NCBI GenBank assembly: GCA_949317995.1
Contig: OX439037.1
Location: 20,758,324-20,822,323, forward strand
DNA from: Acholoe squamosa
Taxonomy: Eukaryota; Annelida; Polychaeta; Phyllodocida; Polynoidae
Reading direction: 5' to 3'
DNA: 64,000 nt
The notes beneath the pieces were generated by a model, which saw only the letters and a list, made by a program, of their open reading frames with translations, did not search any database and was not told the DNA's origin. Numbering within the stretch: position 1 is the first letter of the stretch; each line of letters begins with the position of its first letter. Of the stretch, positions 2,770-42,274 are shown in pieces. A program made the position numbers and the translations under genes.

Positions 2770-3114
2770 TGTGGAAAATCAATGGATTCTTATTTATTTC
2801 GAATAAAATGGAGGAATTTGGCATGGCATGTTCATATAGGATATCTAACAATGTTTTCCTGTGAATAACTCCACCAGGCTCCATTGAAATCTATGCTAAC
2901 GAGGTCTGCAAACATCAGGTATGTGGGAAAAAAAATTCAAATGCTGGATATAGATTCCTGCGCCGAGTGATGAGGCCGGAAGGAGGGGTAATACAGTCGA
3001 AATGTCAAATAACTTTTTGGCAAATACGAACCCATATATCGTAAATAATCACAATATGCTTTACAGTGCTTTAGTCTATGGGAGTCCAGAATCTTACTAA
3101 ACATGTAAAAATAA
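2770..3114. other. No gene recognised
   Basis: Contains a short open frame on the minus strand without recognisable content. It may include the promoter of the Crypton-type gene, but no TATA box or other clear signal stands out. Confidence 0.4.
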
Positions 3115-4890: not shown

Positions 4891-4964
4891 TTGACAATAG
4901 TGTTGGGTTAGATGAGTCATAATATGACATATTATATCAGGGACTCTATGGATACCATATATAT

Positions 4965-5065
4965 GGCTCGTTCTCACCAACGTGATGCAACTTTTTCGGG
5001 GAGGTTTCTGACCGAGGTTTCTGACCGAGGTTTCTGACCGAGGTTTCTGACCGAGGTTTCTGACC
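4965..5065 (+). repeat. Left terminal inverted repeat with five 13-bp motif copies
   Basis: A 36-bp unique tip (4965-5000) is followed by five head-to-tail copies of GAGGTTTCTGACC at 5001, 5014, 5027, 5040 and 5053. The tip and the first motif match the right end exactly, inverted. Subterminal motif arrays of this kind are usual transposase-binding sites; that role is inferred. Confidence 0.9.
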
Positions 5066-5275
5066 GACCGTTGAAGAAAAGTTATTTCATGCTCCAGTTC
5101 AAATTTGGTGACTGAAAGGCACACTTTTTTCTTGACCCCCACTTTCCTTAAGCAGAAAGTGAAGTTTTCCTGTGTCAGGTGAGGGGGGGCCGTGCTGTTC
5201 TTTCGGAAGAGGGCTTCTTTTTTTTTTGCCTTGTCCCTCAGACAGCGGGTTTTCGTGGCAATACGACTGGAGAAA

Positions 5276-5316
5276 ATGACTGCAGGACTTCCTGTGTCTT
5301 CTTCTCAGATGGAAAG
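5276..5316 (+). CDS. Transposase gene, candidate exon 1
   Basis: ATG at 5276 opens MTAGLPVSSSQMER and reaches a strong donor, GAAAG|GTGAGT. Joined to the acceptor at 6966 it continues in frame into FTMANEDREQ. Translation could instead begin at ATG 6974, which has the better ACCATGG context. Only the intact register supports this exon. Confidence 0.4.
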
Positions 5317-6966
5317 GTGAGTAAACATAACAGCCTGTGTTTTTTTTTTTTTTTTCATGCGTTATCCCCAATTTTTTCCATGCATTCCCCCCCCTTTCCT
5401 AAATTTTTTCCTTGAAGAGGTTTCTGACCGGGAACCTAAAACACCCTGTAGAAGGGCGTGTCCATATTTTTCTATGGGAGTCACTGTCCTACACGCAGCC
5501 TTCCTTATTCATCTGTCCCTCTGTCTCACTTTTATTCACCTCGAGACTGAAGGAGACACTTGGGGGGGGGGGAAACTCTTATTCTGCCCTCCTGACAAGG
5601 TTTCTGACCGGGTCCTTTTTTCTATCTTTGGGCTGCCGGGGGGGCCTTTCCTGGGAGTATTTAACTGTGGGGTAGGGGTCCTCTCGTAAGTCCTTTTTTT
5701 TTTGCGTCTTCCCAAGTCATGTTCTTAATTTTAGGGGCCCCTCCCTTCCCTCAGCCCCGACCCTTTGTGTTCCAGGTCGAGTCGGACGAGGTTTCTGCTC
5801 GGGCAGATAGCGCACGAAAAAGCCCCCTACAGTCCTTCTTTGGAACTAACCCCCCACCCGCAGGTAACCAGCTCCAAGCCTGGCCTCTTTCTGGCACTCT
5901 GGAGACATTTTGGCTGCAAGGGAGGATGCTTTTCTCAAGTTTCTGCTCGACGAAGCCAAATTTCCTCTGACTTAGGAGTGCAACTGTAAGTAAAACTTGC
6001 TCATAGGGTGGACAGAGGTAGGGGGACACATATAACACGTAGATTTATGGTTGTTTGTCTCTTTAGAAGGGTTTTTCGTCGTTCTAACGCCGCGGTCCCC
6101 TCTTCCCCCGCCGTCGAGGCGCCCAGTCAGAAGCCGGTCAGAAACCTTGTCGCGAGGTTTCTGCTCGAAAGCTTTGTGATCGATGATGAAATCAGGGGCG
6201 GCGGAACGGGGGGGTGGGGGCCAGGGGGGCCACGGCCCCCCGAAATCAAAGTTGGGGGCCAGACTATGTTTAGGCCCCCCCCAACATTTTGGGGGACTTT
6301 CTTCTGCTTATTAGATGATGGTCAAAAGACAAAATGAAACTGATAAAACTTCTTCATACATTTTTAGGTATCCTGTGTGCTAAATATTGAGAAAAATAGG
6401 CCTGTTGTGGGCTCAGAATGCACCATGTCACTTCTAAAATTTTCCCTGGGGACCCCCTTTCAGTATATTTCTAAACTCTATAAACTTAAGTCAAGTCATC
6501 TTGAAATAGCCATATTTTTTACCCCCATGCCCCCCCCCCAGTTATTTGAGGACCCCCCCCATGTGGCTCTCACTTTTTCAAAAGAGGTCTTCATAGGACT
6601 TTGCCTCTCTTTTTTGGTCACCCTCTCTCCCTCTCCTTCCTGCTGCAAGAAGAAGCCATGTGTGGCTTCTCCTTCCTTTCTGCCATGTTTCTGACTGAGA
6701 AGTTTTACCTTCACTGAAGTTCATAAGAAATGTTTCTTCACGGGACGGGCAGGAGGGGGTAAAACATAGGGGGGAGTATTTTGTTCTCTTTAATCCAAAC
6801 AGCCTTTCGGTCCTTCAAAAGGGGGGGATAAAAAAAAAATTGCCTTCCTCCATACCCTTTTTTACTCCTCCCTTTTTAAATGACATCTTATAGTGTCTTA
6901 TATCTAGTATATTTTGTCATGTATGTGTTGCCTGTCTTGCTCTATTAATTTTTTTTTCTTCTCCAG

Positions 6967-7246
6967 GTTCACCATGGCGAATGAAGACCGAGAGCAGGAT
7001 TACCAAGCCCAGTTTCCGTTTCATGTACCTTTGGCACGACCCAGACCTCGGATGCCGTTCCCGGAGCTAGACGAAGTCGTCAAATTGTGGGCAGGTTACC
7101 TCCATCTGTTCAATGCAGCTGACGCCAGGATATACCAAAACGCCCGCAGCGCAAGGAACAGCAGGACGAGTTATAAATCAACGGTACATGGTGACGACAA
7201 GGAGAAGGCGGAGGAAAAGAGACAGGAGTATCGGGAGAGAGCATAG
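6967..7246 (+). CDS. Transposase gene, exon 2
   Basis: Preceded by a long pyrimidine tract and TCTCCAG. It contains ATG 6974 in a strong context and encodes MANEDREQDYQAQF and then a basic, Arg-rich tail (EKRQEYRERA), about 90 residues, with no known domain. The last codon is TAG, lying directly against a donor GTAAAA. Either the gene yields a short protein here or the TAG is a nonsense change, because the next exons carry on in the same register. Confidence 0.5.
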
Positions 7247-7339
7247 GTAAAAATTACATCTTTCTCTTTCCCTTACTTCTTGAAATATATTATTAGTTGT
7301 CATATTTTAATTTATTCATATATTATTCTTTTGTTCAAG

Positions 7340-7364
7340 GTTATAAGGCTGCTTGGGAAGACAA
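7340..7364 (+). CDS. Transposase gene, exon 3 (25 nt)
   Basis: A micro-exon between TTGTTCAAG and GTAAGG. Its length takes the register from phase 0 to phase 1, which is what exon 4 needs. It encodes VIRLLGKT and the first base of the next codon (A|TG). Weak alone; supported by register. Confidence 0.3.
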
Positions 7365-7689
7365 GTAAGGGAGAAATCATTTTTTGATAACAATCATACT
7401 GGCGAGAAAAGAAAAAGTTACCTCCCTCATTCCAAAATCACGACACAACAAATTAAATAAAAAAGCAGCCTCCCTCCCTCCCACTACTTTTTAAAAAAGT
7501 TTCCGCTGAAACGATAATCAATGTAATGCACCCTTATGTACCAATACAAGTCAGGTGAACAAGGATTTCTTTTTTGTGTTCTTAATATCTTTTCATGTTT
7601 TGGATCAGAAGGAATAATTTGTTATAGCATTCACGGCAACTAAATCCTACTTCAGAAGGTCCGCAAATGTCATATATACGTTCAAAAGT

Positions 7690-8510
7690 TAAAGTTTTGT
7701 TACAAGAGAATAAAGTTAAGACCGAAAAGTGAGTGCTGCAAGACAGGGGTTCCCCGACCTCCTTTTTAAACTTGCAGGATTCCCCTCTGTTCCTCTTAAG
7801 TAACCATAACAATGCCGCTGAAAGTGCTTTCAAATAATCAATCTGATATATATGTGTTTAAGCCATATTTCAACAAGATAGTGAAATGTGGACATTTACA
7901 CATCAAAATTGAATCTCAAAGTGAGCTGCCATAGGCGGAACGTTGAAGTGTGCGGTAGTTGGTGGGCCAACCACCAGGGGGCCACTCCCCAATGGCGTGG
8001 GGTTGGTGACCGTAGAGTTGCGCTTCTGGGTGGATTTTATTCTGTGACCTCAGTCTGCATTTGAACAGCGAAAGGCTGTAGACGATAGTCAGCCGAGGTT
8101 TCTGACCGAGGTTTCTGACCGAGGTTTCTGCTCGGTCAGAAAACTCCGTCCTCTATTCCTTTGGGAAGACTAAGACCACAGAAAAATAAAAACTACCCAG
8201 AAGCGAATTCCTACGTGCGCCCGCTCGACAGCATGCGTCAGCGGCCCCCCCCCGTGGTTGGCCCACCAACTATTTCATCCTTCACCGTTCGGCCTATTAT
8301 GGGGAACTTTAACTTTGAATAAATCTTTTGATCTGCAAATGTCCATGTTTTACAAAGTTTTGCAGGGGCACATGAGAAACACTTGGCTTTGATCTTTTTA
8401 AAATGTTTTCGGTGTCATTGTTACTGTTAATTTTGAGGAAAAGAGGGAAATGCTGTAAGCTCAAAAAGGAGGTGGGGGAATCCCTATTTCGCAACACCGA
8501 ACCATCGGAA
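7690..8510. repeat. 0.8-kb palindrome centred on the 13-bp motif, in intron 3
   Basis: Two arms of about 400 bp match inverted along their whole length. Anchors are AAAAAGGAGGT with its mirror (7755-7770 and 8465-8475), AGTTGGTGGGCCAACCAC (about 7957 and 8255) and CGCTTCTGGGT (about 8020 and 8200). The centre, near 8094-8150, is a tandem of three GAGGTTTCTG motifs ending in an inverted copy. It looks like a small element or a template-switch duplication built around the motif. Confidence 0.75.
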
Positions 8511-9648
8511 CTGTTTTACTTGTTGGAGAGTAGAGGCTGATGTAAGCTGATCTGGGTTGGATGCCACATGTGGGACCTCTCCCCTGTGTCAGCACCACAT
8601 GTCAGCACCACAGGGGGCAGTGGTCACACACCAGACACTGGAGGTGTGTGGACCAAAACATACAGCTGTCATCTCTTGTATACATTGTATACTACAATGA
8701 CACATTACACATTTTACATGAAGGATAAGATGTTGTTCTATGCATTTAAATGCCTAAAAATGGTATATTCATGTTTGTTCTATAATGGGTATAGATGACC
8801 CTGCCCCCCCCCACATCAACATGTACACAAAGATGTGGCACTCTCACTGAGTAACCACAGGGAGTAACCAGGGGGTGTGAGGCCTACTGGCCCACCCTAT
8901 GGGTGTCTGTCACTGACCCCCTCAGTCTGCTGGGTTGTGATGTATGGATTTATAAAATGTATTTGCTTTTGACACTTTTCCATTAAAGGAAAAATATATG
9001 TTATTTGAAAAAAAATATATCGCTATCAGCCAAAGTAGATGAAAATCTCTAAAATGCACCAGACATTTTTAAGAATATCAACGATTTCCTTGGGGGGGGT
9101 CTGTGGGCATCCAGACCACCCCCCCAATGTGTGCATACTTTCGGAACCAAGTTTTTTCAGGGTTTTTCTCAAGACCCCACTTACATCCCTGTATTTATAA
9201 TGTCTTTGCTCAAACCCTGTAATTTTTGCCCACCCTCTTTCTGACCGAGGTTTCTGCTCGGGCAGAAACCTCGTTCCTTAGAAGCGATCCTAGACATGTA
9301 CCCTTTCTGCCTGTCATCTCAAATTGAAAATTACTACCCCATACGTTCAACTGATATCCTACATCTAATTTTCATAGGACAATTTGAAGGTGGGGAGGAC
9401 AGGGCTTGCCTGCTGGGCACAATTTCTCTTTGCCTTGGTGTGAAGTGGCCACACAGTCTCCAACCTGATTTCTTGAGCCCTTTTTGAAAAAACAGAATAC
9501 AGATCAGCCAGAAGCACTGTAACCTTATTAATGACAGACCCTGACCTGGTAAATAAGTGAGCCTTTTCACGTCTGAAGCATGACTTATGAAAATGAAATC
9601 ATAAACATCAGTCAGACGTTTATTTCCTCTTCTCTTTTCTTCCTTCAG

Positions 9649-9723
9649 TGGTTTCCCGTAAAAGCCCTTTCTTTGTCCCGTCTCATCGCGATTCGTCTTC
9701 CGATGAAGACAACGAAGTTCCAA
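9649..9723 (+). CDS. Transposase gene, exon 4
   Basis: Lies between TTCCTTCAG and a consensus donor GTGAGT. Encodes VSRKSPFFVPSHRDSSSD and EDNEVP, a hydrophilic acidic/Ser segment. 75 nt, phase 1 to phase 1. No domain recognised. Confidence 0.55.
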
Positions 9724-10214
9724 GTGAGTACATCTTTCTTGTCTTGTGTATGAAATTTGATGGTGTCCTGCTGCCACCTCCTATACGTTTCTCTTCAAGT
9801 TATTGCACTGACATAGATGATGTACTACTTTCTGTCACCCATACAAGCAAACCTTCAAATCAAAAATCTTTTACTACTGTAATTAATAACCTTATGACTA
9901 AAAAGCCTTCAGTCCTCATTTTTGCCCTAATGACCAAAGGCTGTCATGCTTAAATATTTAGTAAGTGCAATTTTAAACTTAAAGCCATAGTTTCGTGCGG
10001 CTGTTCTTCCGTCCCGATTGGAGGCAGATGAACTGCAAGGTGACGTAATCAGTTTACTCTTGCTGCGTGTGGTACTTAATCGTGTTGCCTTGCCTGCTGT
10101 AGGATCTGAGGTGGACTAGACGAGAATTCTCCATAGTTTCGTGCACTTTGTGCCTATCAGAGAGCTAAATGTTTTCTCTCAGAACTGCAAATTTTTGGAC
10201 TTCTTTCTCTTCAG

Positions 10215-11183
10215 GACCAGAGTCGACACCTGTGACAGGTCATGATCGGACTACAAGAGCTGTGACGCGGTCGTCCGCTGCCTCCCATCGAGACCAAAGA
10301 TCTTCCTCATCCTCTGCTTCACCCTGTGCGACACCAAAAACGAGCAGACCAAGCTCGAGCAAAGGGACGACATGTTCTGGGACTTCATCTGATAGGAATC
10401 GTAACGTAACTACAGCCGGTCGTCTCGCAAAGTCGACCTCGGACCCCACAGGAGCCAAAGGTACTCGACCAACTACAACACCCGCCATGAGGAGGACGAT
10501 GACGTTACCGGGGACTTCCTCCAGCTCCTCGAATCGTGAACAAAGTAATACAGCTAGGACAGTTCATGTCAAGTCCACATCCACTAACCCCACAGCAGCC
10601 AAAGGTGCTCAACCAACTTCAACACCCGCCATGAGGAAGACGAAGATGTCCCCGGGGACTTCCTCCGGCACCTCGAATCGTGAACAAAGTACTACAGTTC
10701 ATGTCAAGTCCACATCCTCTCATCTCACAGGAGCAAAAGCTGGTCGACCTAGTGCCACACCTGCCTCCAACAGTGACAAAACTACCACAGCTACGAGTAT
10801 CGTAGTCAAGTCTACAGGTTCTAGTGCTGCCAAGGCAACACCCAGAACGACTAAACAGACAACATGTCTTGTATCTTCCTCCCCCGCCTCACATTCAACA
10901 GCACAAAAGGCAACACCACAAAGCACGAGCAAATGTACGTCTCCTGGCTCTTCCTCAGCCGCCTTGAATCGAAACCAAAGTACAGCCGCCAGCAGGGATG
11001 TGGTAAAGTCTGTGTCATCTTCTGCAGGCAGTCCGAGTGTCAGCCAGCATCAACAGCGTCGAGTGTCCACCCGAAGGAGTCGCAACGCCGCAGTCTTCAG
11101 ATGGCCTCCAGAGGATTTGGCCCCAGAGGAGCTGGCCTCCCTTACTCCGACGAAGATGGCAAAGTCATCAGCAGCTGAGCGTG
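10215..11183 (+). CDS. Transposase gene, exon 5, Ser/Thr-rich
   Basis: Starts after TCTCTTCAG and ends at GTG|GTAAGT. It encodes 322 residues dominated by Ser, Thr, Ala and Pro, with loosely repeated blocks (KSTSTNPTAAKGAQP, then TSTPAMRKTK, then SPGTSS) recurring three to four times, and ends with a basic stretch (QQRRVSTRRSRN). It is probably an intrinsically disordered linker; the basic tail could bind DNA or direct nuclear entry. 969 nt, phase 1 both ends. Confidence 0.6.
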
Positions 11184-11215
11184 GTAAGTTTTATGCTATT
11201 CCTTCATCTATCTTG

Positions 11216-11396
11216 CGAGGTTTCTGACCGAGGTTTCTGCTCGCGCAGGTACTACAGTTCCTAGTCTGTTTGAATGGTTCGACTTGGGTTGCTGACGGAG
11301 GTTTCTGCCCGAGCAGAAACCTCCGTCATATTATTATCTGTTCTCTGTATGCATCAGGTTTCTGACCGAGGTTTCTGACCAAGGTTTCTGACCGAC
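11216..11396 (+). repeat. Motif cluster in intron 5
   Basis: Three groups of the GAGGTTTCTG motif. One, at about 11297-11331, is a near-perfect inverted repeat: GACGGAGGTTTCTGC and GCAGAAACCTCCGTC separated by 3-4 nt. It starts only about 30 bp after the exon 5 donor. Confidence 0.8.
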
Positions 11397-11534
11397 GTCG
11401 ACAACCAACTATAGAAAGACGTCTGTATTAAACATATTTGTGTACATGACAAGACATAACATCTTCTTTGCTTTTCAGCCAGTAGGTTTTTCTTTGCCCT
11501 CCCTCTGATTGTCAATTTTTTTTTATTTTTCTAG

Positions 11535-11594
11535 AGAAGCCAGATGAGACGGTATATAACATTAAGACAGAAGCAGAACACGATTCCTCGGAAG
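11535..11594 (+). CDS. Transposase gene, exon 6
   Basis: Lies between TTTTTCTAG and G|GTATGC. Encodes EKPDETVYNIKTEAEHDSSE. IKTE.E is reminiscent of a SUMO consensus site, which is inference. 60 nt, phase 1 both ends. Confidence 0.55.
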
Positions 11595-11918
11595 GTATGC
11601 ATGACAGTTAATTTTGTCTCTATGAACCGCCCACCAGTGTTTCAGATAGATTTTGGCATGTTCTTTGATCTGTTTATTTCCTGAATCATTAAAACTATTG
11701 AAAAGTTCTGGTTGTTATCAGATGTGTAAGGTGGAACAGGTGACTCATCGCTCCATGAACCGAGCCATTGAAGACCGATATATGTCCAGACTTCACTGTT
11801 CCCCCTTGAAAAGTGTAAATATCTGTTAAATTTCTTCAGGTGGACAAAGATAATTTGTACCTGCTTATTTTTTTCTGCATGAAATAAACAACATGTCCTC
11901 TTTCCTACTGTTCTTCAG

Positions 11919-12107
11919 AGACCGAGATTGTTCCTGCCTCCTCAGACGAGGAGAGACCCCAGTACATGCCTATACCCTTTACGGACGAAGGGAGCTTGTC
12001 CCCGGACTATACTCCATCTCTCGAGGTATCCCGTTTTATGGAAGGTGGTGGTTCCCCCTCTTCATCTCGCTCCTCTTCTCCGGAGCCAAAGAAGGCCCTG
12101 GCGTCGA
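11919..12107 (+). CDS. Transposase gene, exon 7
   Basis: Lies between GTTCTTCAG and GTAAGT. Encodes ETEIVPASSDEERPQYMPIP followed by an acidic and Ser/Pro-rich segment (SPSSSRSSSPEPKK). 189 nt, phase 1 both ends. No known domain. Confidence 0.55.
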
Positions 12108-12433
12108 GTAAGTACAGTTGCGTCTCTTTCATCTTCTATCGGACAGTCTGCCACACTTAGATGAACCAGGGTCATCCAACACACCTTAAGTCAACAAAAG
12201 CACAGAAATTTTTACTAGTCTTCTAAGTCCCACCGTCAATTTACTTTCAGACAGAGTACTGTACCAATCTCCAGTCAAAGTTGTTATCCTGCCTAAGAGT
12301 CTATAATTAGTTTCCTGACAGTGAATTGACCTCTGTGAACGACTGCGACAAGACAGGCATATTTCCCCCTTTTTTTTCTTACTGCCATTTACTGAAGCAT
12401 GTTTAATTCATCTCATTTATTTTGTCGGTTCAG

Positions 12434-12511
12434 GTCGAGCATGTGCCGTTTCCTTGGACCACAGCTATAGCGAGCGGTCCTTCGTGATGGAAGAGGATGA
12501 TGGTCCATCAG
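12434..12511 (+). CDS. Transposase gene, exon 8
   Basis: Lies between GTCGGTTCAG and G|GTGAGC. Encodes RACAVSLDHSYSERSFVMEE and DDGPSG. 78 nt, phase 1 both ends. No known domain. Confidence 0.55.
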
Positions 12512-12620
12512 GTGAGCAGTGATATCAGACATTTTATCTGTCAGAAGTGCTTCTTGAACCTCCATGTACATACCTCTTTGCTCTTTGTGTCGTTATATGT
12601 CTTAATCTGTCCGCCAGTCA

Positions 12621-12825
12621 CACGAGGTTTGTGACCGAGGTTTCTGCTCGGTCAGAAACCTCCGTCGAGTACTTGACTAACGCGTGGTACACTTTAAGAA
12701 CAATGTTGAAAGGGCCGACGAGGTTTCTGACCAAGGTTTCTGCTCGGTCAGAAATCCTCGTGCTGTTTGTCTTGAACAATGTAACTGTCAAGCTCTCCAA
12801 GTTGTCCAAAGAGGTTTCTGACCGC
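12621..12825 (+). repeat. Motif hairpins in intron 8
   Basis: Two full hairpins (about 12623-12666 and 12717-12762) and one single motif (about 12811). The hairpin form is GAGGTTTCTGACCGAG, loop GTTTCTG, then CTCGGTCAGAAACCTC. The same hairpins with similar flanks (AAAGGGCCGACGAGG) recur in intron 10. Confidence 0.85.
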
Positions 12826-12920
12826 CATGTCCGGCTAAGTTATACTAACTTTCTGAAGTTTAGGCTGCCTTCCGTCCTTGTCCTTCCTTCAGCATAACTT
12901 ATGTTACATTGATTCTTCAG

Positions 12921-14264
12921 GTAAAACTCCAGCACACCTCCCTATCCACTGTCAGGACACCTCCGAACAGGCGAGCACCGTACTGGACAAGACCGTGGTG
13001 GCTGGTGTTCAGGTTAAAGGCCTCCCCGACACCACCGATGACTCCTCACCACAGGTCAGCAATGTTCAACTACAGGGTTAAAGCGTCACCACTCACTCTG
13101 AGGCCACCTCCCCTCGGGTGAGGACCGGGCAGGAGGAGGAGAACACTGTTGTCACCCCCCTTCAGGGAAAAAGTGTCACCACTCACTCTGAGGCCACCTC
13201 CCCTCATGTGAGCACGGGGCAGGAGGAGGAGAACACTGTTGTCACCCCCCTTCAGGGAGAAAGCGTCACCACTCACTCTGAGGCCACCTCCCCTCAGGTG
13301 AGCACCGGGCAGGAGGAGGAGAACACTGTTGTCACCCCCCTTCAGGGTGAAAGCGTCACCACTCACTCTGAGGCCACCTCCCCTCAGGTGAGCACCGGGC
13401 AGGAGGAGGAGAACACTGTTGTCACCCCCCTTCAGGGTGAAAGCGTCACCACTCACTCTGAGGCCACCTCCCCTCAGGTGAGCACCGGGCAGGAGGAGGA
13501 GAACACTGTTGTCACCCCCCTTCAGGGTGAAAGCGTCACCACTCACTCTGAGGCCACCTCCCCTCAGGTGAGCACCGGGCAGGAGGAGGAGAACATTGTT
13601 GTCACCCCCCTTCAGGGTGAAAGCGTCACCACTCACTCTGAGGCCACCTCCCCTCAGGTGAGCACCGGGCAGGAGGAGGAGAACACTGTTGTCACCGCCC
13701 TTCAGGGTGAAAGCGTCACCACTCACTCTGAGGCCACCTCCCCTCAGGTGAGCACCGGGCAGGAGGAGGAGAACACTGTTGTCACCCCCCTTCAGGGTGA
13801 AAGCGTCACCACTCACTCTGAGGCCACCTCCCCTCAGGTGAGCACCGGGCAGGAGGAGGAGAACACTGTTGTCACCCCCCTTCAGGGTGAAAGCGTCACC
13901 ACTCACTCTGAGGCCACCTCCCCTCAGGTGAGCACCGGGCAGGAGGAGGAGAACACTGTTGTCACCCTCCTTCAGGGTGAAAGCGTCACCACTCACTCTG
14001 AGGCCACCTCCCCTCAGGTGAGCACCGGGCAGGAGGAGGAGAACACTGTTGTCACCCCCCTTCAGGGTGAAAGCGTCACCACTTACTCTGAGGCCACCTC
14101 CCCTCGGGTGAGGACCGGGCAGGAGGAGGAAAAGACTCTGGTGACAGCCCTCCCTGTTCAAACTGGCGACACCTCACAACAGGTCAGCAGGGTACAGGTG
14201 GATAAGACACTTGTGGCACCTGCAGATGAGCAAGCACCCCTGGCCACCAATAACTCTGTGTCAG
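12921..14264 (+). CDS. Transposase gene, exon 9, built mostly of a 30-residue repeat
   Basis: Acceptor GATTCTTCAG, donor TCAG|GTAAGG. The exon opens with KTPAHLPIHCQDTSEQ, then twelve 30-residue repeats (about GESVTTHSEATSPQVSTGQE, then EENTVVTPLQ), then a tail ending ATNNSVSG. Acidic/Thr-rich and probably disordered. The first repeat begins with TAA where the others have GAA, a single change that stops the frame. 1,344 nt, phase 1 both ends. The antisense open frame over the repeats is a shadow. Confidence 0.55.
13081..14160 (+). repeat. 90-bp coding minisatellite, 12 units
   Basis: Units start at 13081, 13171, 13261 and so on every 90 bp up to 14071. Middle units are almost identical; the outer ones carry variants (GTGAGGACC for GTGAGCACC). 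The period is a multiple of three, so copy-number change keeps the frame. The high internal identity implies recent or ongoing expansion. Confidence 0.95.
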
Positions 14265-14427
14265 GTAAGGTTATCAACTATTTCTCTTCATTTGCTTAGT
14301 CTAATTTAACAGTAGTCTCAGGAAACGGCAGATCCCCTTCAAATTTTCCTTTCCGCTGACACCATGTTGTGTGAAATGATAAACAAATTTCAGTCCTTCA
14401 ATGTCTTTACTTTTTGCACCCCATCAG

Positions 14428-14461
14428 GAACAACTGTGCAGGTCTCAAGAGACCCAGAACG
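14428..14461 (+). CDS. Transposase gene, exon 10 (34 nt)
   Basis: Lies between CCCATCAG and G|GTGTGT, encoding TTVQVSRDPE. It converts phase 1 to phase 2, exactly what the acceptor at 18003 requires to read ...PE, R, PLVLTIKKKG. Short, so the support is the register. Confidence 0.4.
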
Positions 14462-15064
14462 GTGTGTATGAATATATGGCGTTCAGAGTTTCAAAGTTCT
14501 GTTTGTTCAAAGAAAAACCCCGTTGACAGTTGAACACTAACTTTTAACTTACATGACATGTATGCCTTAAATTCCCAAATCAGGCGGATGATGGACGTCC
14601 CTGGTCTATAGGTTGACCTATGACTCATGCCGTTTGAAACGGCTGTCTCCGGTTAATTGTTTTTTAACATGTCACAATATAATTAATTGGCTTAACACTA
14701 ACATAATGCAACCTTGTTTACAGTCATAGGACCTGAGCTGCATGGTGTCGTTTGTCCCGTCCGTCCTGAGCCTTAGGATGCTACAGTCAACTGCCATCCG
14801 TCTCAGACTGTAGGAGCATTATCCGTTGGATGTCTTCAAATGTTAAACTTTCAATGTTAAAGAGTTTTCCTGAAGAACTGTTTTTCTCATGTAAGGATAT
14901 ATTGGTTCATGTAACAATCGGTCATCATATAGCTTCTTAGCGACTAAACTGACCGAGGTTATTCTGCTGAAATGCGTCATCCCGCTGACGTTTCATCTGA
15001 TTTGAAGGTTCAAGTTCAATTGTTATAAAGTTAACAAGTTTGTAGAAAAACACCACTAACTTAC

Positions 15065-15335
15065 ATGTATACATGTTCGTGTCTGTATGTGGGTCAGTCT
15101 ACCGACGGATCAACGGGAGCCTGCCCATTGTTTTGCTGATTACACTTTAAGTACCCCCTTTGAGCTAAAGAAGAATCTCTTTGAATTGGATGGCGACTTG
15201 TTTTTCAGCAATATATAGGTATGGGCCCCCCTCCCAATAAAGAAAAAAATATGACTGAATTTTATTGTGTATAGGGGTTCCCTGACCCCAGTCTCCCGTC
15301 GATCTGTCGGTAGACTGACCCGCATGTATACAGGA
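15065..15335. repeat. Small inverted-repeat (MITE-like) element
   Basis: The segment GTATACATG followed by GGGTCAGTCTACCGAC, GGATC and AACGGGAG at the left is mirrored at 15288-15334 with a few mismatches. The interior is about 170 bp with no coding content. Family unknown. Confidence 0.55.
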
Positions 15336-15530
15336 AATCTTCACTTTTGGTTTTGTGGAGAGACGGAACACCCGTAGTTGTACAGCGTAAAAGTGTCCTA
15401 TTAAACCATTGTCATACTCCCTGTCATGAGAGGAGAGCAACAGAGCTACTTTTCGAAATTAAAAAAAACAAAAACAGGAATAAATTCTTTGTGCGTGTGT
15501 ACGTCTGTCGCAAACTATTAACGAAAATGT

Positions 15531-15955
15531 TTTCTGACCTTGGTTTCTGCTCGGTGAGAAACCTTCTTCATATCCTTCAGTGAACTGTATGGTTTACTTT
15601 CAGAACAATTTATGAAGGAGTGTCGAGGTTTCTGACCTCGGTCAGAAACCTCCGTGTTACACTTGACTACTATGTTCTGTTTACTGTAAGCACGCTGTCA
15701 GACAGGGAGTACCAGCTTTCTGACCGAGGTTTCTGCTCGGTCAGAAACCTGCTTTAAATGGTTCAGTTATCGGTATGGTTTAGACTTCATGAGCAATTTT
15801 AAAAGGGCCGACGAGGTTTCTGACCGAGGTTTCTGCTCGGTCAGAAAGCTCCGTGTTACTCTTGACTGAACTGTACTGTTTTCTGTAAGCAGCTGTCAGA
15901 CAGGGAGTACCAGGTTTCTGACTAAGGTTTCTGCTCGGTCAGAAACCTCGGTGTC
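15531..15955 (+). repeat. Five motif hairpins in a row in intron 10
   Basis: Hairpins at about 15534, 15623, 15718, 15812 and 15909. Several have 16-bp arms (GAGGTTTCTGACCGAG and complement) around a 7-nt loop, GTTTCTG, itself part of the motif. The text between them also repeats (GCTGTCAGACAGGGAGTACC twice), so blocks of about 190 bp were duplicated with the hairpins. Confidence 0.9.
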
Positions 15956-17204
15956 ATACCTCTTGTGCTATGTTGAGCGTGTTATTTGCTCTGTTAGAGC
16001 GATACATCTTTTGGACAAAGCTTCTGCAAGATACATTTCTTATGCCACACGAGTTTGCCTCCCCTTCTGTCCATCTTTCAAATGCTTCCTGTAGCAGAGA
16101 TTTTGTCATGGTACATATAGACAGAGAGGAATTTTGCAGATGTTCATCCATACATGAGACGGTTCTCAGTGGAGGGGGGATTATTATATTTACCTGATAA
16201 ACATAGTTGTATTACGCTGTTACACATGGCATCAGAGGGAAGTCGTAGTAGCAGAAAAAAGTCATAGCTTATCCAACCAAGCATCGAAAAACCAGAAGCA
16301 GAAAAAAAATGTTACCTTACTTCTTGTAGGAGGTGAATTTTTTTCTGGAAATTTTAATAATAAATGGGAACCGTTCCGTGTTTCTTCACGTCATATACAA
16401 TGATTGGTGCTAATTTGTCTGTGATTATAAAGCGTTGTTACCTGTGCCATTTATGTTTAACTGATATCCATATGAAAAGCGTATATGTTTTCCATTAAGA
16501 TGACACAAAATATAGAAGAGCATTTTCCTTGAGACTCTGTGACTTCTTTGGATTATAAGGTGTTCATGCTCAGAAAATTTTAGTCCATGGAACTAGAGAA
16601 AAGGGAATCTCTGATAATGATTTTGTTGGAAAGAAACGCACAATTTCGACACACCTGCGTCCCATTAAATTGTCGGTACACATTTTAATCGATATATGGA
16701 TACAGATTCTTACCATTTTCCTGTCCAATTGTTCATAAAAGACTTTCCCGTTAAGTTGTAATCTGACACGCACTGACAGATAAACGTCCAGATCTATGCA
16801 TAATGAAAATGTACGTGTGACAGGAGTTAAATTGTTAAGGCAGCACATGCTTCATCTTTGTTATGTCTTCTATGATGTCAGGGTTCTTTCATGCCTCATA
16901 TATATGTGATAAGAGTACAATACTTCATGTAAATTTCTGACAGGAGAAACAAACTTGCATGACGTTACACATATATATACTTTGATTGAATGTGTTCTTC
17001 GCTGTATTAAAATAAAAGTGACATTCAAATGTGATACTTGATTCTGTGATAAGATGTACCTGTCGGTGATTTAAGTGGTGAGAGTGAGGATATTCCCCAA
17101 AAGACTTAAGAGTTAGGCTTCAATAAAAGAACAGTTAGCCCTTTCATGAATAAATTTGTTGTGTTCAAGATATGTGAAGCTCAGTGCAGTACAAGTAAGA
17201 CAGA

Positions 17205-17700
17205 GAAGGTTTCTGACCGGGAGGTTTCTGCCCGGTGTCTGTGTGCCAGTTAAATTTCTGAAGAAAAGGTGGTAACCATCTTCAACTGATAGAACCATTA
17301 TTTCTGCACACGTTGCAAGTTACACCAAACAATAAATTCTTCGAAAAGATGGACCAGGGTGCTGTAGGCTGTTGTAACATTTATAAACGTCATTCTTAGG
17401 AGGTTTCTGACCGGTCAGAAACCTTCTCTTTAAGAGAAGGTTTCTGACCGGTCAGAAACCTTCTCTTAAAGAAGTTTCTAAGCGTGGAGGCATACCTTAA
17501 CTTCGGTTCACAAGTCAAACAGAAAGCATTCCCAACCTGCGTCTGGTATGCTCTAAATTTCTTTCTTCTAACCCAATGAAAGCAAAGTGTATAGACGAAA
17601 AGCGTGTCCTCTTCAACTTCTTCCAGGAGGTTTCTGACCAGCGAGGATTCTCTCCGACTAGGTTTCTGACCGGCAAGGTTTCTGCTCGGCTTTCTGTCTT
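17205..17700. repeat. Motif cluster in intron 10, right part
   Basis: Variant hairpins: AAGGTTTCTGACC directly joined to GGTCAGAAACCTT, present twice between 17398 and 17465, plus singles at 17207, 17219, 17627 and 17661-17690. Confidence 0.8.
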
Positions 17701-18003
17701 GGTTGAAGGGGGGTCCTAAAAGATGTGAATTAAGTTGAGTGAAAAGGCAAACAAGCAGTACAGAAGATGTCATGCATAGACACAGTGTGCTAGAAGGTGG
17801 ACCGCACATCAATCCGACATGTGAAAGGAAAAACAGAAAATAAAATCTTAGAAAAACAGTGCCTTCTTTCTTTAGTCAAGTTATAAAAGACATTCATGAT
17901 TTTACTCTGCTTACACAAGAACATCTCTTCCTCTCAAAGAATTAAAATCCCACCCCAGATGACTTTGAAAAGTTATATTTATGTCACATTATTTATTCTG
18001 CAG

Positions 18004-19093
18004 ACCTCTCGTGCTGACAATAAAGAAGAAAGGAAAGACGTCTGTCCCACGGAAGAGGAAGTCTAAACTCGACCGAGGCAAGTCGTCCAAAACCCCCAAA
18101 ACAGCTGACTCTGTGGAGTTCAAGCTACCGCCAAAACCGGTAGTTTCTTTACAGGAATCAGCTACATCTGGGAGCACAGACCAAGTAGTAACTACCATAG
18201 GTCGAATGGTGTGGCGGGTACCCAAGAAACCTGCAGCTTCTGGACAGGTTGTCCCTTGAGATGGTGAAGCAGATCATGCATCAAAGCCTACGGATAAAGG
18301 AGAACCATGCAATCCTGAAGCGGAGCTGAACGCTGCTTCACCTGCTAAAGCAGACTCTAAAGACAGTTTAGATAGGCTTCTGGATGGCATATCGGAAGAT
18401 GAGTGGAACAATTCAGTGAACTTCACAGACCAGGCAGATAGCTGTCCTCTACAGAACACTTCACAGTCATCTCATGACAAACAGGACAGTCCTTGTCTCC
18501 CTTCTGGCTCTCAGGAGAAATCAACAGTGCAACCGAAGAAGTCTCCCTGTACTCCCAAGGGTGTGACCTTCTTTGGCCCTCTCACTTCAACTCCTGTCGG
18601 TGAACCAGTACCTCTGTGTACCCCCTGCATAGAGTACTCTGTAGACACTGATAGTCCGCTGGCCTCTCCTCTTTCGCCAGAAGACAGGAAAAATGAGGGT
18701 GACCAGGATGCCTGTACCCAGGAACATGTACCTGCTCCAGAGCCTCGGTTGTTAACCCAACCTGACAGGTCTCTCCCTGTGGATGTATCTGACTATGATT
18801 CCACATCAGACAAGGAGGAAACTCCTACTCAGGCATGACAAGCGGTGAACTGGGAAGAAGGGTCATTTCCTGAAGACCCAGTCTTCTTACCTTCAGACAG
18901 CGAAGGTTCCTCTGATTTAAGACAGGGTGAGATATTCCCCCAAGGCCCTGTGTCAGCTGCCTCTGTCAAGTCAGACAACTCTCAAGACGAACGAGAGGAA
19001 CAGTCATTTAGTCCTGCCCATGTGTCTCCCCTTTCGGTTCATAGCAGAACTGAGCCCTCTAGTGAGTCCCTACAGGAACTGTCATGTACGTCT
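18004..19093 (+). CDS. Transposase gene, exon 11, N-terminal acidic part
   Basis: Follows the acceptor TATTCTGCAG. It begins PLVLTIKKKGKTSVPRKRKS, a basic, nuclear-signal-like stretch, then turns acidic and Ser/Pro-rich (LDRLLDGISEDEWNNSVNF; DVSDYDSTSDKEE). Two in-frame TGA codons (18257 and 18836) interrupt an otherwise continuous register, as the reading style is the same on both sides. With a TAA and a TAG elsewhere in the gene, decay is likelier than recoding. Confidence 0.5.
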
Positions 19094-19754
19094 GTGCAGG
19101 CGTCCCCTTGTCCCAACGACAAGCAGCAGGAATCTAATACGCCAGACTCACAACAGGAAGAGTCTCGGCATTGGGTAGGTGGCACAAGTGACTGCTCTGA
19201 CCACCCCCCAATGATGACGAAGGAGAGGACCTCTCTATATACACGGTGCAGGCGTCGCCTTGTCTCACCGACAACCAGCAGGAATCTGATACGCCTGACT
19301 CACAACAGAAACAGTCTCGCCATTGGGTAGGTGGCACAAGTGACTGCTCTGGCGACCCCCCCAATGACGACGAAGGAGAGAACCTCTCTATATACACGGT
19401 GCAGGCGTCGCCTTGTCTCACCGACAACCAGCAGGAATCTGATACGCCTGACTCACAACAGGAACAGTCTCGGCATTGGTTTGGTACCACAAGAGACTCC
19501 TCTGGTGAGCCCCCCCATGAAGAGGACGGAGAGGATCTCTCGATATACACGGTGCAGGCGTCACCTTGTCCCAGTGACAATCAGCAACCTTCTGACACCC
19601 CTTACCCGGAAGTTGAACTGTGTCCCCATTGGGTAGACCCTAGTACCCACCAGTTTGGCCAGTCCACGGACGACGAGGAACAGGCTGTGTCAGTCGGCCC
19701 CGTGCAGGCGTCACCTTGTCCCAGTGACGACCAGCAGCCTTCTGACACCCCTCT
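19094..19754 (+). repeat. 153-bp coding tandem repeat in exon 11
   Basis: GTGCAGGCGTC recurs at 19094, 19246, 19399, 19552 and 19702, spacings 152, 153, 153 and 150. Each unit encodes about VQASPCLTDNQQESDTPDSQ plus an acidic half ending LSIYT. The first unit is one base short in its C-run (about 19205) and this alone shifts the frame. Confidence 0.9.
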
Positions 19755-21150
19755 AAGAAATGAACCTGATCCTGACTGTTCTCAGATGGAAATTGACCCT
19801 CTGGAAACCTCTGTTAGAACTCTGACGTTGCATCTGCTCAGGGAATTGGATGAAGCTGGCAGTCAGGAATCGAAACTGAAGAAGCTGATTCACCTAGTAG
19901 AAATTAAAGAGCAGTTAAAACACATAGACACTGACACCAAGAAAAGAGTTTTCAGTGCTCGGTGTGGCGGTTCTAGGAAAAGGTACGGCCAGAAATCTGC
20001 TATAGCCAAAGCCCTTCGCCTTTGCCGGAACTCCGTGTTTCCTACTAAAGTCAGAAGAAAGGCCACGTCTAGGAAGGACATCTCCCAGAGTAAGCAGAAG
20101 GCAGTGAACGAGTTCCTGCGACGAGAGGATAACAGTTATGTGCTTCCCGACAAGAAATACTACCGCAAAATAACAGGAGACTTTGTCCCAGTAGTAGCTC
20201 TTGTTGACTCTCTCAGGAATCTTCACAAGAAGTTTGTCGTCGAGACGGCACTCACTGTCTCATTCCCTAGTTTCTGCAAGGCGCGAGACAAAAGGAGAGT
20301 GCGCACCTCTGTGTTCCTGAAGAGGGCCATCTGTCTCTGTAAGCCGCACGCTAACATGGGGATGCTGCTGGAGGCTGTGGACGCTTTGCCAAACCGCACC
20401 TCACAACTCCTGGAGTTGACAGACGGTGAAGTCACTGCTCGTCTGCAGTTGATTCCTTCCTCTATAATCAGCTTTAAGCGTTGGGAGACAGAGGAGAGAA
20501 AATACAAAGGTAGGACTGTGTACCATACCGTCCTGGTGAAGAAGAAGCTCACGTCGGACCAGTTCAAGCTGCACTTCTTGGCTGAGCTGGAACCTTTCCG
20601 GGAACATCAAGCCCGTGTGGTCGCTCAGTACGAGAACATCCGCCAACTGAAGGAAAATCTTCCTAAGCAGCATGTCATCTGTCAAATGGACTACGCGGAG
20701 AACTGGGCGTCTTCTTTTATGAGAGAGATTTCCTCCGCCTTCTTCGCCAAGGACCAGATCACTCTACACCCTATGGTAGTTTACCACCGAGTACCAGACA
20801 GTGAGAAGCTGAAAAATGTCAACTATGTAGGTGTCAGTGAGGTGACTTCTCACTCGTTCCCGACCACACTGACTTTCATCACACAGCTTGTTGATCAGAT
20901 CAGGAAAGTGGAACCGAACCTCAAGCACATCCACCTTGTCACCGACTCCCCGACGTCACAGTACAGAAACAGGTACTCCTGCGAGCTGCTGTGGAGGGCG
21001 TTTGGGTTGTTTGGCGTACGCATCACATGGAATTGGCTAGAGGCGGGCCACGGAAAAGGTCCGTGTGATGGCATTGGGGGAGCTGTGAAGGGTATGGCTG
21101 ACCGCATAGTAAAGAAGTCAGGTCATATTCAAAAGCTGACGAGTTTATAG
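19246..21150 (+). CDS. DDE-type transposase domain of the giant transposon
   Basis: A 634-codon open stretch. After the acidic repeats comes a helical/basic N-terminal region (RCGGSRKRYGQKSAIAKAL), a conserved pre-core (NEFLRREDNSYVLPDKKYY; LHKKFVVE) and a short Cys motif (AICLCKPHANMGML). The catalytic-type core follows: QMDYAENW (about 20680), HLVTDSPTSQYRN (about 20935) and AGHGKGPCDGIGGAVKGMAD (about 21043), whose acidic residues are candidates for the DDE/D triad. The role would be cutting and joining of the element ends in the nucleus. The core order and the HGKGPCDGIGG block match a common metazoan transposase group; the superfamily name is not certain. The frame breaks off at 21150, where continuing coding text (ADEFIEQVQPETVKLSLLRT) lies in another frame. 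Confidence 0.8.
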   Translation: MQASPCLTDNQQESDTPDSQQKQSRHWVGGTSDCSGDPPNDDEGENLSIYTVQASPCLTDNQQESDTPDSQQEQSRHWFGTTRDSSGEPPHEEDGEDLSIYTVQASPCPSDNQQPSDTPYPEVELCPHWVDPSTHQFGQSTDDEEQAVSVGPVQASPCPSDDQQPSDTPLRNEPDPDCSQMEIDPLETSVRTLTLHLLRELDEAGSQESKLKKLIHLVEIKEQLKHIDTDTKKRVFSARCGGSRKRYGQKSAIAKALRLCRNSVFPTKVRRKATSRKDISQSKQKAVNEFLRREDNSYVLPDKKYYRKITGDFVPVVALVDSLRNLHKKFVVETALTVSFPSFCKARDKRRVRTSVFLKRAICLCKPHANMGMLLEAVDALPNRTSQLLELTDGEVTARLQLIPSSIISFKRWETEERKYKGRTVYHTVLVKKKLTSDQFKLHFLAELEPFREHQARVVAQYENIRQLKENLPKQHVICQMDYAENWASSFMREISSAFFAKDQITLHPMVVYHRVPDSEKLKNVNYVGVSEVTSHSFPTTLTFITQLVDQIRKVEPNLKHIHLVTDSPTSQYRNRYSCELLWRAFGLFGVRITWNWLEAGHGKGPCDGIGGAVKGMADRIVKKSGHIQKLTSL

Positions 21151-22096
21151 AGCAGGTACAACCTGAGACAGTGAAGCTTTCCCTCCTAAGGACAAAGTCA
21201 GCAGAGGTAGAATCTGCCAGGAATCTCGTCAAGTCGTGGAAATCTCCCCCTGTCAAGGACATACTTTACTACCGTACTTCGTGCTACCAGGAGTGTTGCA
21301 TGGGAGACGGGGACCTGCGGCCATCATGTGACGCCTGGGACGCGAAGCCTTTGAAAAAACGAAAGGCTACTTCCGTGAGGAAGAAAAGGCGCACAGTCAG
21401 ATCGACGGGGAACCCGAAGATGAAGGTACAGAGATGCCCTTGGTTACTGTCCAGGATGCTCCTGTCGAACCGGAAGTTGAGCCAGAAGATGACATAGTCA
21501 AGGACGCAGCAGGCTTCAATGTTCCCGGCATCACAGAGGAGGTCTTCAGCAGTGATGAGGAGTACGGCCATCTGGAAGACTATGTTTTCAACATACGTCG
21601 TGCTGCAGAAAGAAGGAAACACCGGTCAGCGAAGCGAAGGAAAAAGAGTGCCTCTGCTGCTACAGCGTCTTCTCCGACACCTGCTCCTACTGCTACAGAG
21701 TCTGCTTGTACACCTCCTCGTACACCTGCTCCTTCTGCTGCACAGTCTGCTCGTACAGCTGCTCCAACAGGTACTCCTACACCTGCTACTACACCTGCTC
21801 CTACACCTACACCTGGCGACAGCGATTGTGACAACGACAACGTTCAGTCTGAGGGTTACTCTTCGGAGAACTCCTCCTCCTCCTCCTGTGACTCCGATTC
21901 TGACTATTATCCTGATAAAGACCTAAGTGACACTGAGAGGGCCCACTTCGACAGAATAGCCGCAGCCCGTCGACAAGGAGAATTTGTCAATGAGCTGTTG
22001 GACGGAGAGACATCGAGCGACAACTGGGCTGTCACAGATACAATATCTCTCAGGAAATATGTGGACTGGGGATTCAACCGTGACGTCAGACCTTAG
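21138..22096 (+). CDS. Transposase gene, exon 11, C-terminal tail
   Basis: Coding text continues from the core in shifted frames: first ADEFIEQVQPETVKLSLLRT to about 21340, with YYRTSCYQECCMGDGDLRPS, then EAFEKTKGYFREEEKAHSQI and on to the stop at 22094. The last 220 residues hold a basic segment (ERRKHRSAKRRKK), a Pro/Thr/Ala low-complexity tract (about 21655-21820), an acidic Ser/Asp tract and WAVTDTISLRKYVDWGFNRD at the end. A basic then acidic C-terminus is usual in large eukaryotic transposases but gives no specific function. Confidence 0.55.
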
Positions 22097-22169
22097 GAAA
22101 CCCAGATTTATCTTTCAATTTAAGAATGGACCATGGTTTGTGAAAAAAAAACATGTGTCTGCCTGACAG

Positions 22170-22360
22170 ATGTCTTCTCTGAGAAGAGCAAGTGTTCTTT
22201 TATAACCAGTCTCTGACTCCTCCATCTCTTTCCTGAGGACAGCTAGTGTTCTTTTATGACCCGTGTCTACCAGATGAAGCTCTTACCGGAGGACAGCTAG
22301 TGTTCTTTCATGACCCGTGTCTGCCACATGAAGCTCTTACCGGAGGACAGCTAGTGTTGC
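22170..22360 (+). repeat. Short tandem repeat after the transposase stop
   Basis: AGCTAGTGTTCTTT recurs at 22241, 22294 and 22348 with a degenerate copy near 22184, period about 53-57 bp. It lies in the presumed 3' untranslated region. A possible polyadenylation signal, AATAAA, is at 22783. Confidence 0.75.
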
Positions 22361-22399
22361 CATTCACATGTAGACAGTTCTAATGATCTATCCTTTGTG

Positions 22400-22590
22400 C
22401 CGAGGTTCCTGACCGACAAGGTTTCTGTCCATGTTCATACGTGTGTGCAAGCATACATGTATCCAGTTACGCCAAGGTTTCTGCCCGGGAGAGGAGGTTT
22501 CTGACCGACGAGGTTTCTGACCGACGAGGTTTCTGACCAAAGGACTGCTGTAAGGTTTCTGACCGAAGAGGTTTCTGCTCGGGGGTTTTT
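22400..22590 (+). repeat. Right subterminal motif cluster
   Basis: Six or seven variants of the GAGGTTTCTGACCGA motif, mostly in direct orientation, opposite to the terminal array at 23075-23187. The region from 22600 to 23070 shows nothing else recognisable. Confidence 0.8.
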
Positions 22591-23072
22591 AGCGTTCACA
22601 GAGAAAAAGGAAAGTTTTTTTTCTGAAACAAAAGCACAAGGGCGTTCTTCAGATATGACTCTGACAGGAGGAAAGAGAAGTTCAAGTTATCTACTGAAAG
22701 CAGGACCGTGACAGAAACAAGAAAAAGAGGGAAATTTTTTCTGTGCGATACTGGAGCTTTCGGGAGTCTTCAAGGACTTAAAAATAAAAGAAATAATATA
22801 ATTAAAACCACATGAAGAAGTGAGTGACTGAAAGGACTAACAAAAAGTCTGTTTGTTTTCTGTTGTCTCTTAAATACTTAAATTACCCGCTTTTTAGGAC
22901 GTTTTTAATTTGCTGGTCAGAAACCTCACACAGCTTAGGATTGCTTGCTTAACTGTAGGTAAAAAGGGGGAGAGAAAAGCGTTTCAGTTTTTTTTTCTTC
23001 TGAAACAGATATTAGAAAACTTCTTGTCACCTAAGTCGAAAGAATTTTTCTGTTTGGAGCACTTTGGTCAAC

Positions 23073-23224
23073 GGGCAGAAACCTCGGTCAGAAACCTCGG
23101 TCAGAAACCTCAGTCAGAAACCTCGGTCAGAAACCTCGATCAGAAACCTCGGTCAGAAACCTTGGTCAGAAACCTTGTCAGAAACCTCCCCGAAAAAGTT
23201 GCATCACGTTGGTGAGAACGAGCC
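23073..23224 (-). repeat. Right terminal inverted repeat with nine motif copies
   Basis: Nine copies of the motif in reverse orientation (core CAGAAACC) at about 13-bp spacing run from 23075 to 23187. They are followed by the tip that mirrors 4965-5000. The array is longer than on the left (nine against five), so the two termini have expanded independently. Confidence 0.9.
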
Positions 23225-23231
23225 ATATATA

Positions 23232-23443
23232 TATGGAACTATATACACTCGTGTATATTTATATAATTAGCCGCGGACGGTTAGGGACTACTTTCAGCTC
23301 GTAAGGATACCAATGATGTCATAGTGTGACGTCATGGTCAACAACCCCACTGGTATAAAAGGGGGCGGGTTCAAGCTAACCGTCAATTGGCTCGTATTCA
23401 CCTGTACAGGTAACACCACGCTGGGTGTTCCCTGGAATTTTAA
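23232..23443 (+). repeat. DIRS element repeat A1 with promoter
   Basis: 212 bp matching 27582-27793. It contains a TATA box (GGTATAAAAGG, about 23353) and a CRE-like TGACGTCA just upstream (about 23329), so transcription probably begins inside this repeat. Confidence 0.85.
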
Positions 23444-23480
23444 CGGTTTTCTTGATTGAGATTTGATTTTTCAAATCAAG

Positions 23481-24506: not shown

Positions 24507-24551
24507 GAAACTGTAGGTGGTCGATGTCCCATAGCTTGTAATGATTTTTGT

Positions 24552-27374: not shown

Positions 27375-27418
27375 TTGGTATGTGTTTGTTCACATGTGTT
27401 TGGCGTGTTTAGGTGTTT

Positions 27419-28064
27419 GGCATGTATGGTGCTGATAGCCCCAAGGTCAGTAATCCACCAAACTCATGTGTCTGTGATATGATCATTTATTATACTACTG
27501 CAGCATTATTATTATTACCGCATATCATCGCTATTATTATCGTTATTACCGGTATTATTATTCCCTGGTAGCGAGATAACTTATGGAACTATATACACTC
27601 GTGTATATTTATATAATTAGCCGCGGACGGTTAGGGACTACTTTCAGCTCGTAAGGATACCAATGATGTCATAGTGTGACGTCATGGTCAACAACCCCAC
27701 TGGTATAAAAGGGGGCGGGTTCAAGCTAACCGTCAATTGGCTCGTATTCACCTGTACAGGTAACACCACGCTGGGTGTTCCCTGGAATTTTAATTTTTTA
27801 CTATTGTTAGTACTATTGTTATTACTATACTATTTATTATATTATGCATTTTACTGACTATGCTTATTGTCAACTAATTATTATAGTTGTTTTAATAAAG
27901 GCATGTATGGTGCTGATAGCCCCAAGGTCAGTAACCCACCAAACTCATGTGTCTGTGATATGATCATTTATTATACTACTGCAGCATTATTATTATTACC
28001 GTATATCATCGCTATTATTATCGTTATTACCGGTATTATTATTTCCTGGTAGCGAGATAACTTA
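27419..28064 (+). repeat. DIRS element B1-A2-B2 terminal block
   Basis: B1 (27419-27583) runs straight into A2 (27582-27793); B2 follows at 27900-28064 after about 105 bp of unrelated AT-rich sequence. B1 and B2 both begin GGCATGTATGGTGC and end GCGAGATAACTTA. An (AT)n tract (28063-28083) follows. Confidence 0.9.
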
Positions 28065-28083
28065 TATATATATATATATATAT

Positions 28084-35490: not shown

Positions 35491-35515
35491 CTGGTGCCGT
35501 GACCAGTTAATTCTG

Positions 35516-42251: not shown

Positions 42252-42274
42252 TAGACCAGGTAAAGAACACTACA

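Follow-up and report, generated by a model that had tools for sequence, protein, structure and literature searches.

The stretch of DNA analysed here, 64,000 nucleotides of contig OX439037.1 from the polychaete Acholoe squamosa (hereafter the window), contains at positions 4965-23224 an element that is confirmed to be a large, intron-rich terminal inverted repeat (TIR) DNA transposon of 18,260 bp. It is probably a dead member of a multicopy, once autonomous family of Sola-like cut-and-paste transposons, with a spliced gene and a family-specific motif that would be the site of a putative self-encoded protein. That the window holds a large TIR transposon whose transposase is encoded by a single long spliced gene had been predicted earlier from its sequence, and this part of the prediction is upheld: the ends occur as pairs elsewhere, the interior is present in many copies, and 4-bp target duplications are found at six of eight other pairs.

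The 48 bp of exact inverted complementarity that the original prediction assigned to the ends are borne out, and the match reaches 56 bp when the flanking AT run is included. In the 1.48-Gb, 63-contig assembly from which the window derives, and in which the genome searches were carried out, the end sequence gives at least 51 matches; since 40 of 621 candidates were scored, the end-sequence counts are lower bounds. The occurrence of the ends as pairs elsewhere, proposed with the prediction as a check, is observed at eight further loci, where facing ends are spaced 7-31 kb apart. Immediately outside the GGCTCG termini, six of these eight pairs are bordered by an exact 4-bp duplication (TTTA, TCAT, ACTT, GTAA, TCAA and GGGT). 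Furthermore, nine other copies preserve the same order of sequence at approximately 95-99% identity when the tandem repeats are set aside; several of them contain nested insertions, and copies c9 and c12a contain internal deletions. For copy c2a the comparison covers the left part, and for copy c12b everything except some 2.2 kb at the 5' end. The paired TIRs, the exact 4-bp duplications and the copies in the same order show that the element is a multicopy mobile element.

The gene of the family is modelled with ten coding exons at splice-consistent boundaries, which sum to about 2,400 codons, and the window copy retains nine of them because exon 2 falls within about 560 bp missing at 9366. 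The missing exon is seen in the copy on C11, where it connects the phase 0 of exon 1 to the phase 1 of exon 3. The six internal exons of 75, 969, 60, 189, 78 and 1344 bp are each a multiple of three in length and share the same open phase, except for a stop at 13079. All motifs of the Asp/Asp/Glu (DDE) core lie within one open frame, 19201-21150, in agreement with the predicted plus-strand gene ending in such a core; the predicted length of about 2,400 residues also holds, and the predicted number of about 11 exons is close to the ten of the family and the nine of the window copy. A relative of exon 1 (36% identity, E 2e-8) is located far upstream in an element of the sister family 909, which supports one long gene; in the element of the sister family 844, an exon 1 relative was not seen.

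The gene of the window copy is dead, as a result of the missing exon 2, stops and frame losses, a defect that was absent from the original prediction. The stop at 7244, at the end of exon 1, is not present in any of the seven other copies holding this exon; the stop at 13079 is absent from six of the seven other copies spanning the site, the remaining one being c2a; and the stop at 18257 in exon 10 is absent from all six other copies that span it. Comparison with four aligned copies additionally reveals single-base gaps at 19203, 21134 and 21406, the first of which is also found in c5a, one of these four copies, as well as a net in-frame gap of 39 bp at 21275. The ratio of nonsynonymous to synonymous substitution rates (dN/dS) between the window core and that of c12a is about 1.1, as expected for recent decay.

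The transposase core was compared in an alignment (A1) of 12 rows, which also provides the residue numbering; matches with stops were excluded, and row L061 was dropped for a stop. D297, D382, E414 and D423 are invariant in all 12 rows, and so are C178 and H183. A DDE and a DDD triad are equally compatible with the alignment, because E414 and D423 are both invariant. The 449-residue core has at least 117 matches in the genome, with 94 of 1,426 candidates scored. Its sister families are 43-55% identical to it, with many frames of approximately 750-1021 amino acids and many copies of equal score. The dN/dS values of 0.14 (L052/L060) and of 0.04 (L058/L059, with dS near saturation) show purifying selection in these sister-family pairs. 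The 909 element measures 12,876 bp and has imperfect TIRs and, in one copy, the duplication TGGT, and the 844 element measures 8,368 bp; lengths and duplications derive from one copy each, with one end compared with four more copies for 909 and one more for 844. The termini differ among the families (GGCTCG, GACCAAG and GACCAATA). The sequence ATAY borders all four 3' ends inspected in the 844 and 795 families (L070-L073) and one 844 5' end (L075), which hints at a target preference or a longer terminus. A C-terminal tail, TSSD(D/N)W...DT, is common to three families (window 21990-22096, L064 around 3445-3543 and L065 around 3279-3410). An open reading frame (ORF) with a Walker-A-like GPTSCGKS adjoins the 5' end of the 909 element (L074, from about 3476) and possibly belongs to another mobile element.

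A 13-bp motif, AGGTTTCTGACCG, is scattered over the non-coding parts of the element and forms opposed arrays at its termini. Such opposed arrays at the ends had been predicted correctly; the motif also occurs throughout the introns, which the prediction did not note. Its core, GGTTTCTG, has 64 matches on both strands of the window, 63 of them inside the element. None of these 63 falls in an exon, although exons make up 7,122 of the 18,260 bases; the corresponding probability under uniform placement is about 3e-14, but coding constraint by itself would also reduce exon matches. Two sister families possess motifs of their own, on both strands: in 909, all 18 occurrences of GTGAGCAGACRCGG and, in 844, all 17 of CGAGAGAGACCC lie outside the transposase frame, the one coding part modelled in these elements. 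Counted with at most one mismatch, the three motifs form a clean diagonal (52/0/0 in the window element, 0/12/0 in the 909 element and 0/0/17 in the 844 element), and no match to any of them occurs in the 45,740 window bases around the element, in L064 or in the sequence flanking the sister elements. Within the sequence searched, which for the 892 and 795 families consists of parts of elements only, a family's own motif in non-coding DNA, the feature known from VANC-type systems, is thus found in the window family and in two of the four sister families examined. In three diverged ends, L028, L029 and L076, the motif bases are identical at 88 of 91, 81 of 88 and 126 of 136 positions (97, 92 and 93%), compared with 336 of 473, 378 of 515 and 672 of 919 for the non-motif bases (71, 73 and 73%); this conservation is somewhat biased, because the aligner can use motifs as anchors.

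The arrays could nevertheless be passive, a terminal repeat having been spread by slippage or unequal exchange and excluded from exons by coding constraint alone. This explanation is a real possibility, if less than an even one: the arrays are tandem, with copy-to-copy differences in number, the elements bear other tandem repeats too, exons purge any repeat, a clear motif is missing from some of the sister families examined, and the isolated motifs of L029 have decayed. Against it stands the retention of motifs away from the terminal arrays, both in L028 (25 of 26 motif bases versus 330 of 465 others, p 2e-3, with two isolated motifs keeping 12 and 13 of 13 bases) and in L076 (79 of 87 versus 670 of 916, p 7.5e-5), as does the presence in two sister families of one motif each of their own, which lies outside the transposase frame and occurs on both strands. 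An unlikely alternative is that the internal motifs are decoy sites, which titrate the transposase and limit the element's own activity. The motif does lie directly inside the TIRs, and the activity of piggyBat is described as restricted by its own transposon ends (PMC11707139), but selection for such self-limitation would have to exceed the cost of the lost activity.

Under the preferred reading, in which a self-encoded protein recognizes the motif, the gene would be expressed as one transcript and yield, after splicing, a protein of about 2,400 residues with a conserved N-terminal exon, a long repetitive middle and a C-terminal transposase. The Asp/Asp/Glu-or-Asp triad would be held in an RNase-H-type fold, and the transposase would cut at the GGCTCG ends and join them to a 4-bp staggered target cut. 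The motif is a candidate binding site of an element-encoded protein, and its internal copies may do more than mark the ends, by contributing to self-recognition, regulation or relief from silencing.

The anatomy of the element parallels that of VANDALs, which are plant Mutator-like elements. In Arabidopsis, VANC is described as binding a short, frequently tandem motif that is concentrated in introns and in the non-coding DNA of the termini; these motifs differ among related VANDAL families, and variable VANC protein regions bear tandem repeats (PMC5735166). The likeness, which is in anatomy alone, consists of a family-specific motif in introns and ends, often tandem, and a repeat-rich protein. 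In contrast, VANDAL has a separate VANC gene, and no VANC-like gene was recognised in the window element. By analogy, an independently evolved counterpart, in which a fast-diverging, repeat-rich protein would read the motif of its own family and mark only its own copies for expression, desilencing or transposition, is conceivable, yet improbable. If the motif were such a self-recognition code, it would represent a testable non-plant case of transposon-encoded, sequence-specific control, and three families with three non-overlapping motifs constitute a natural swap system. Furthermore, poor mobility is expected of large cut-and-paste elements (PMC6431247); despite this, a single genome contains amplified families whose elements measure 8-18 kb.

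The duplication and the size of the element fit the Sola superfamily, to which it is likened by description only. Motifs of similar appearance to those of the core also occur in Sola2 proteins. In a review, Sola elements are characterized by a DDD transposase and 4-bp duplications; their termini vary strongly, the TIRs measure 11-1124 bp, and the size is mostly 2-9 kb, with some elements exceeding 15 kb (PMC10741241); a mean length of 5,445 bp is given for Sola1 in a bivalve library (PMC10294476). Correspondingly, 4-bp duplications are found at the six window-family pairs and, as TGGT, in the 909 sister element, and the sizes (18.3, 12.9 and 8.4 kb) and the three differing termini agree with the recorded sizes, which extend above 15 kb, and with the variable TIR sequence. 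Intronic motif arrays and a ten-exon gene of 2,400 codons, which distinguish the window family, are not mentioned for Sola in the descriptions consulted.

Other superfamilies were compared as well. The target of piggyBac is TTAA, Academ elements combine a 3-4 bp duplication with an XPG nuclease or helicase, Mutator/VANDAL and KDZ/Zisupton elements duplicate about 8 bp or more of target sequence, and En/Spm ends are CACTA. piggyBac does not fit, as the six duplications listed above are not TTAA. For Academ the duplication length fits, and Pfam detects no nuclease or helicase among the eight scanned ORFs. The same eight ORFs contain no rve domain, contrary to what characterizes Ginger1 and Polinton, though rve was detected in the neighbouring retroelements. 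With respect to Mutator/VANDAL and KDZ/Zisupton, 4 bp falls below 8 bp and is at the edge of the 4-10 bp described for IS256 and MuDR (PMC10045372), and no Pfam match to Mutator-like elements was obtained in these ORFs. Polinton/Maverick elements, described as 15-25 kb long with TIRs (PMC6431247), share both the size range and the TIRs, and differ in their 6-bp duplication (PMC10045372), as opposed to 4 bp here, and in the integrase, PolB and ATPase domains, none of which was found in the scanned ORFs. The Chondrus En/Spm (CACTA) elements, reported at 16-20 kb with 4-5 ORFs (PMC6431247), are likewise enlarged cut-and-paste elements of similar size; in contrast, the window element has one spliced gene and ends in GGCTCG rather than CACTA. 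Beyond the host genome, no relative was confirmed in viral contigs, prokaryote contigs or plasmids, one prokaryote contig fitting a degenerate pattern. The signature peptides were not found in the paper texts searched, and titles and abstract openings, a search that did not extend to subscription papers and Repbase Reports, disclosed no such element and no non-plant motif system.

Several observations weigh against the reading of the element as a dead copy of a formerly autonomous, Sola-like transposon with a self-recognized motif. The core has no match at the curated cut-offs of Pfam and NCBIfam and none of significance in the PDB, the best weak match (E 0.005) being to unrelated families and chance-like; Pfam did name the retroelements elsewhere in the window. 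A single-sequence AlphaFold model was poor (pLDDT, the predicted local distance difference test, 36) and was not used. A matching 4-bp duplication is absent from two of the eight pairs (C5:16666052 and C9:7238766) and is not clean in the 844 element (ATAT versus GTAT), and the ATAT of the window copy, compatible with a 4-bp duplication, is not decisive because it sits in an AT run. As regards the motif, no equally clear one emerged at the 892 locus (top 10-mer six times in 3.3 kb, within a palindromic repeat) or in the 795 3' part (top 10-mer four times in 1.4 kb). Beyond the terminal array of L029, 14 of 15 motif bases are conserved versus 434 of 553 others, which is not significant (p 0.14), and of the 13 bases the two isolated motifs keep 9-11 and 5-8, respectively; L076 lacks counterparts to four terminal motifs of the window element. 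Finally, an in-frame TGA at 18836-18838, ahead of the core, is common to all seven copies covering the site. The 909 family is only about half identical in the core, yet it is likewise interrupted by an in-frame TGA between the acidic upstream stretch and the core (L065 6000-6002, minus strand); in families 892 and 844, by comparison, apparent non-coding DNA precedes the stop ahead of the core frame. Of the nine other copies, only c12a remains open without interruption from past the TGA to the end of the gene. Splice scoring with a simple matrix gives an in-frame pair across the TGA, with an acceptor at 11.2 and donors of at most 5.4, compared with 5.6-11.4 for the modelled introns, and the Rfam matches in the 3' part of the window include no selenocysteine insertion sequence (SECIS). 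Splicing, read-through or recoding, and reliance on the protein of another element are all possible explanations.

Two further explanations were weighed. It is rather unlikely that the element represents an undescribed transposase superfamily, with a resemblance to Sola confined to duplication length and size. The absence of significant database matches for all 12 aligned cores, the triad that may be DDE or DDD and the variation of the termini between sister families are consistent with this, but the 4-bp duplication, variable termini, TIR range and size above 15 kb described for Sola (PMC10741241) are all found here; as both size and duplication are as published for Sola, a new superfamily is not demonstrated, and the undescribed family suggested in the original prediction is a possibility only. 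Chance inverted ends around a host gene, or else a Polinton/Maverick, could account for the long spliced gene and for a length in the Polinton range. This is exceedingly improbable, since the paired copies, multiple and with differing flanks and 4-bp duplications, refute it, and Pfam finds no integrase in the eight ORFs scanned, whereas rve and reverse-transcriptase domains were detected in the neighbouring window elements.

Table 1. Coordinates of the transposon features in the window.
Feature	Position	Strand	Remarks
Left 4-bp target duplication ATAT	4961..4964	.	within AT run
Left terminal inverted repeat	4965..5012	+	48 bp exact, begins GGCTCG
Terminal array, 5 AGGTTTCTGACCG motifs	5002..5066	+	
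Coding exon 1	6967..7246	+	ATG 6974, Kozak-like; last codon is a stop in the window copy
Site of missing ~560 bp with coding exon 2	9366..9367	+	from comparison with other copies
Coding exon 3	9649..9723	+	phase-consistent
Coding exon 4	10215..11183	+	Ser/Thr-rich, tandem repeats
Motif cluster, intron 11184-11534	11218..11395	.	
Coding exon 5	11535..11594	+	phase-consistent
Coding exon 6	11919..12107	+	phase-consistent
Coding exon 7	12434..12511	+	phase-consistent
Motif cluster, intron 12512-12920	12625..12825	.	
Coding exon 8	12921..14264	+	~12 in-frame 90-bp (30-aa) tandem repeats; stop 13079 in the window copy
Coding exon 9	14428..14461	+	34 bp; phase restored between exons 8 and 10
Motif cluster, both strands, intron 14462-18003	15532..15955	.	
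Second motif cluster, intron 14462-18003	17207..17690	.	
Coding exon 10	18004..22096	+	acidic region, five 51-aa repeats, transposase core, acidic tail
Catalytic core	20689..21081	+	DYAEN (D297), TDSPTSQYRN (D382), WNWLEAGHGKGPCDGIGG (E414, D423)
Motif cluster, 3' non-coding part	22403..22582	+	
Terminal array, ~9 motifs, opposite orientation	23072..23188	-	
Right terminal inverted repeat	23177..23224	-	48 bp exact
Right 4-bp target duplication ATAT	23225..23228	.	within AT run

The transposon is accompanied in the window by other mobile elements. At 23234-28068, a tyrosine-recombinase retroelement with reverse transcriptase and phage-integrase-type domains exhibits an Ngaro-like layout, with split direct repeats A1 (23232-23443), B1 (27419-27584), A2 (27582-27793) and B2 (27900-28065); it is inserted in the AT run adjoining the right TIR, with no clear target duplication. 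The transposon and this retroelement are together flanked by a 1.6-kb direct repeat, 98.6% identical, at 3109-4730 and 28781-30406. At 35115-47919, direct repeats of 376 bp (98.4%), 12.4 kb apart, flank a Gypsy-type polyprotein, and frames with a nearly identical start to that of this polyprotein are found inside the transposon copy c12b on C12.

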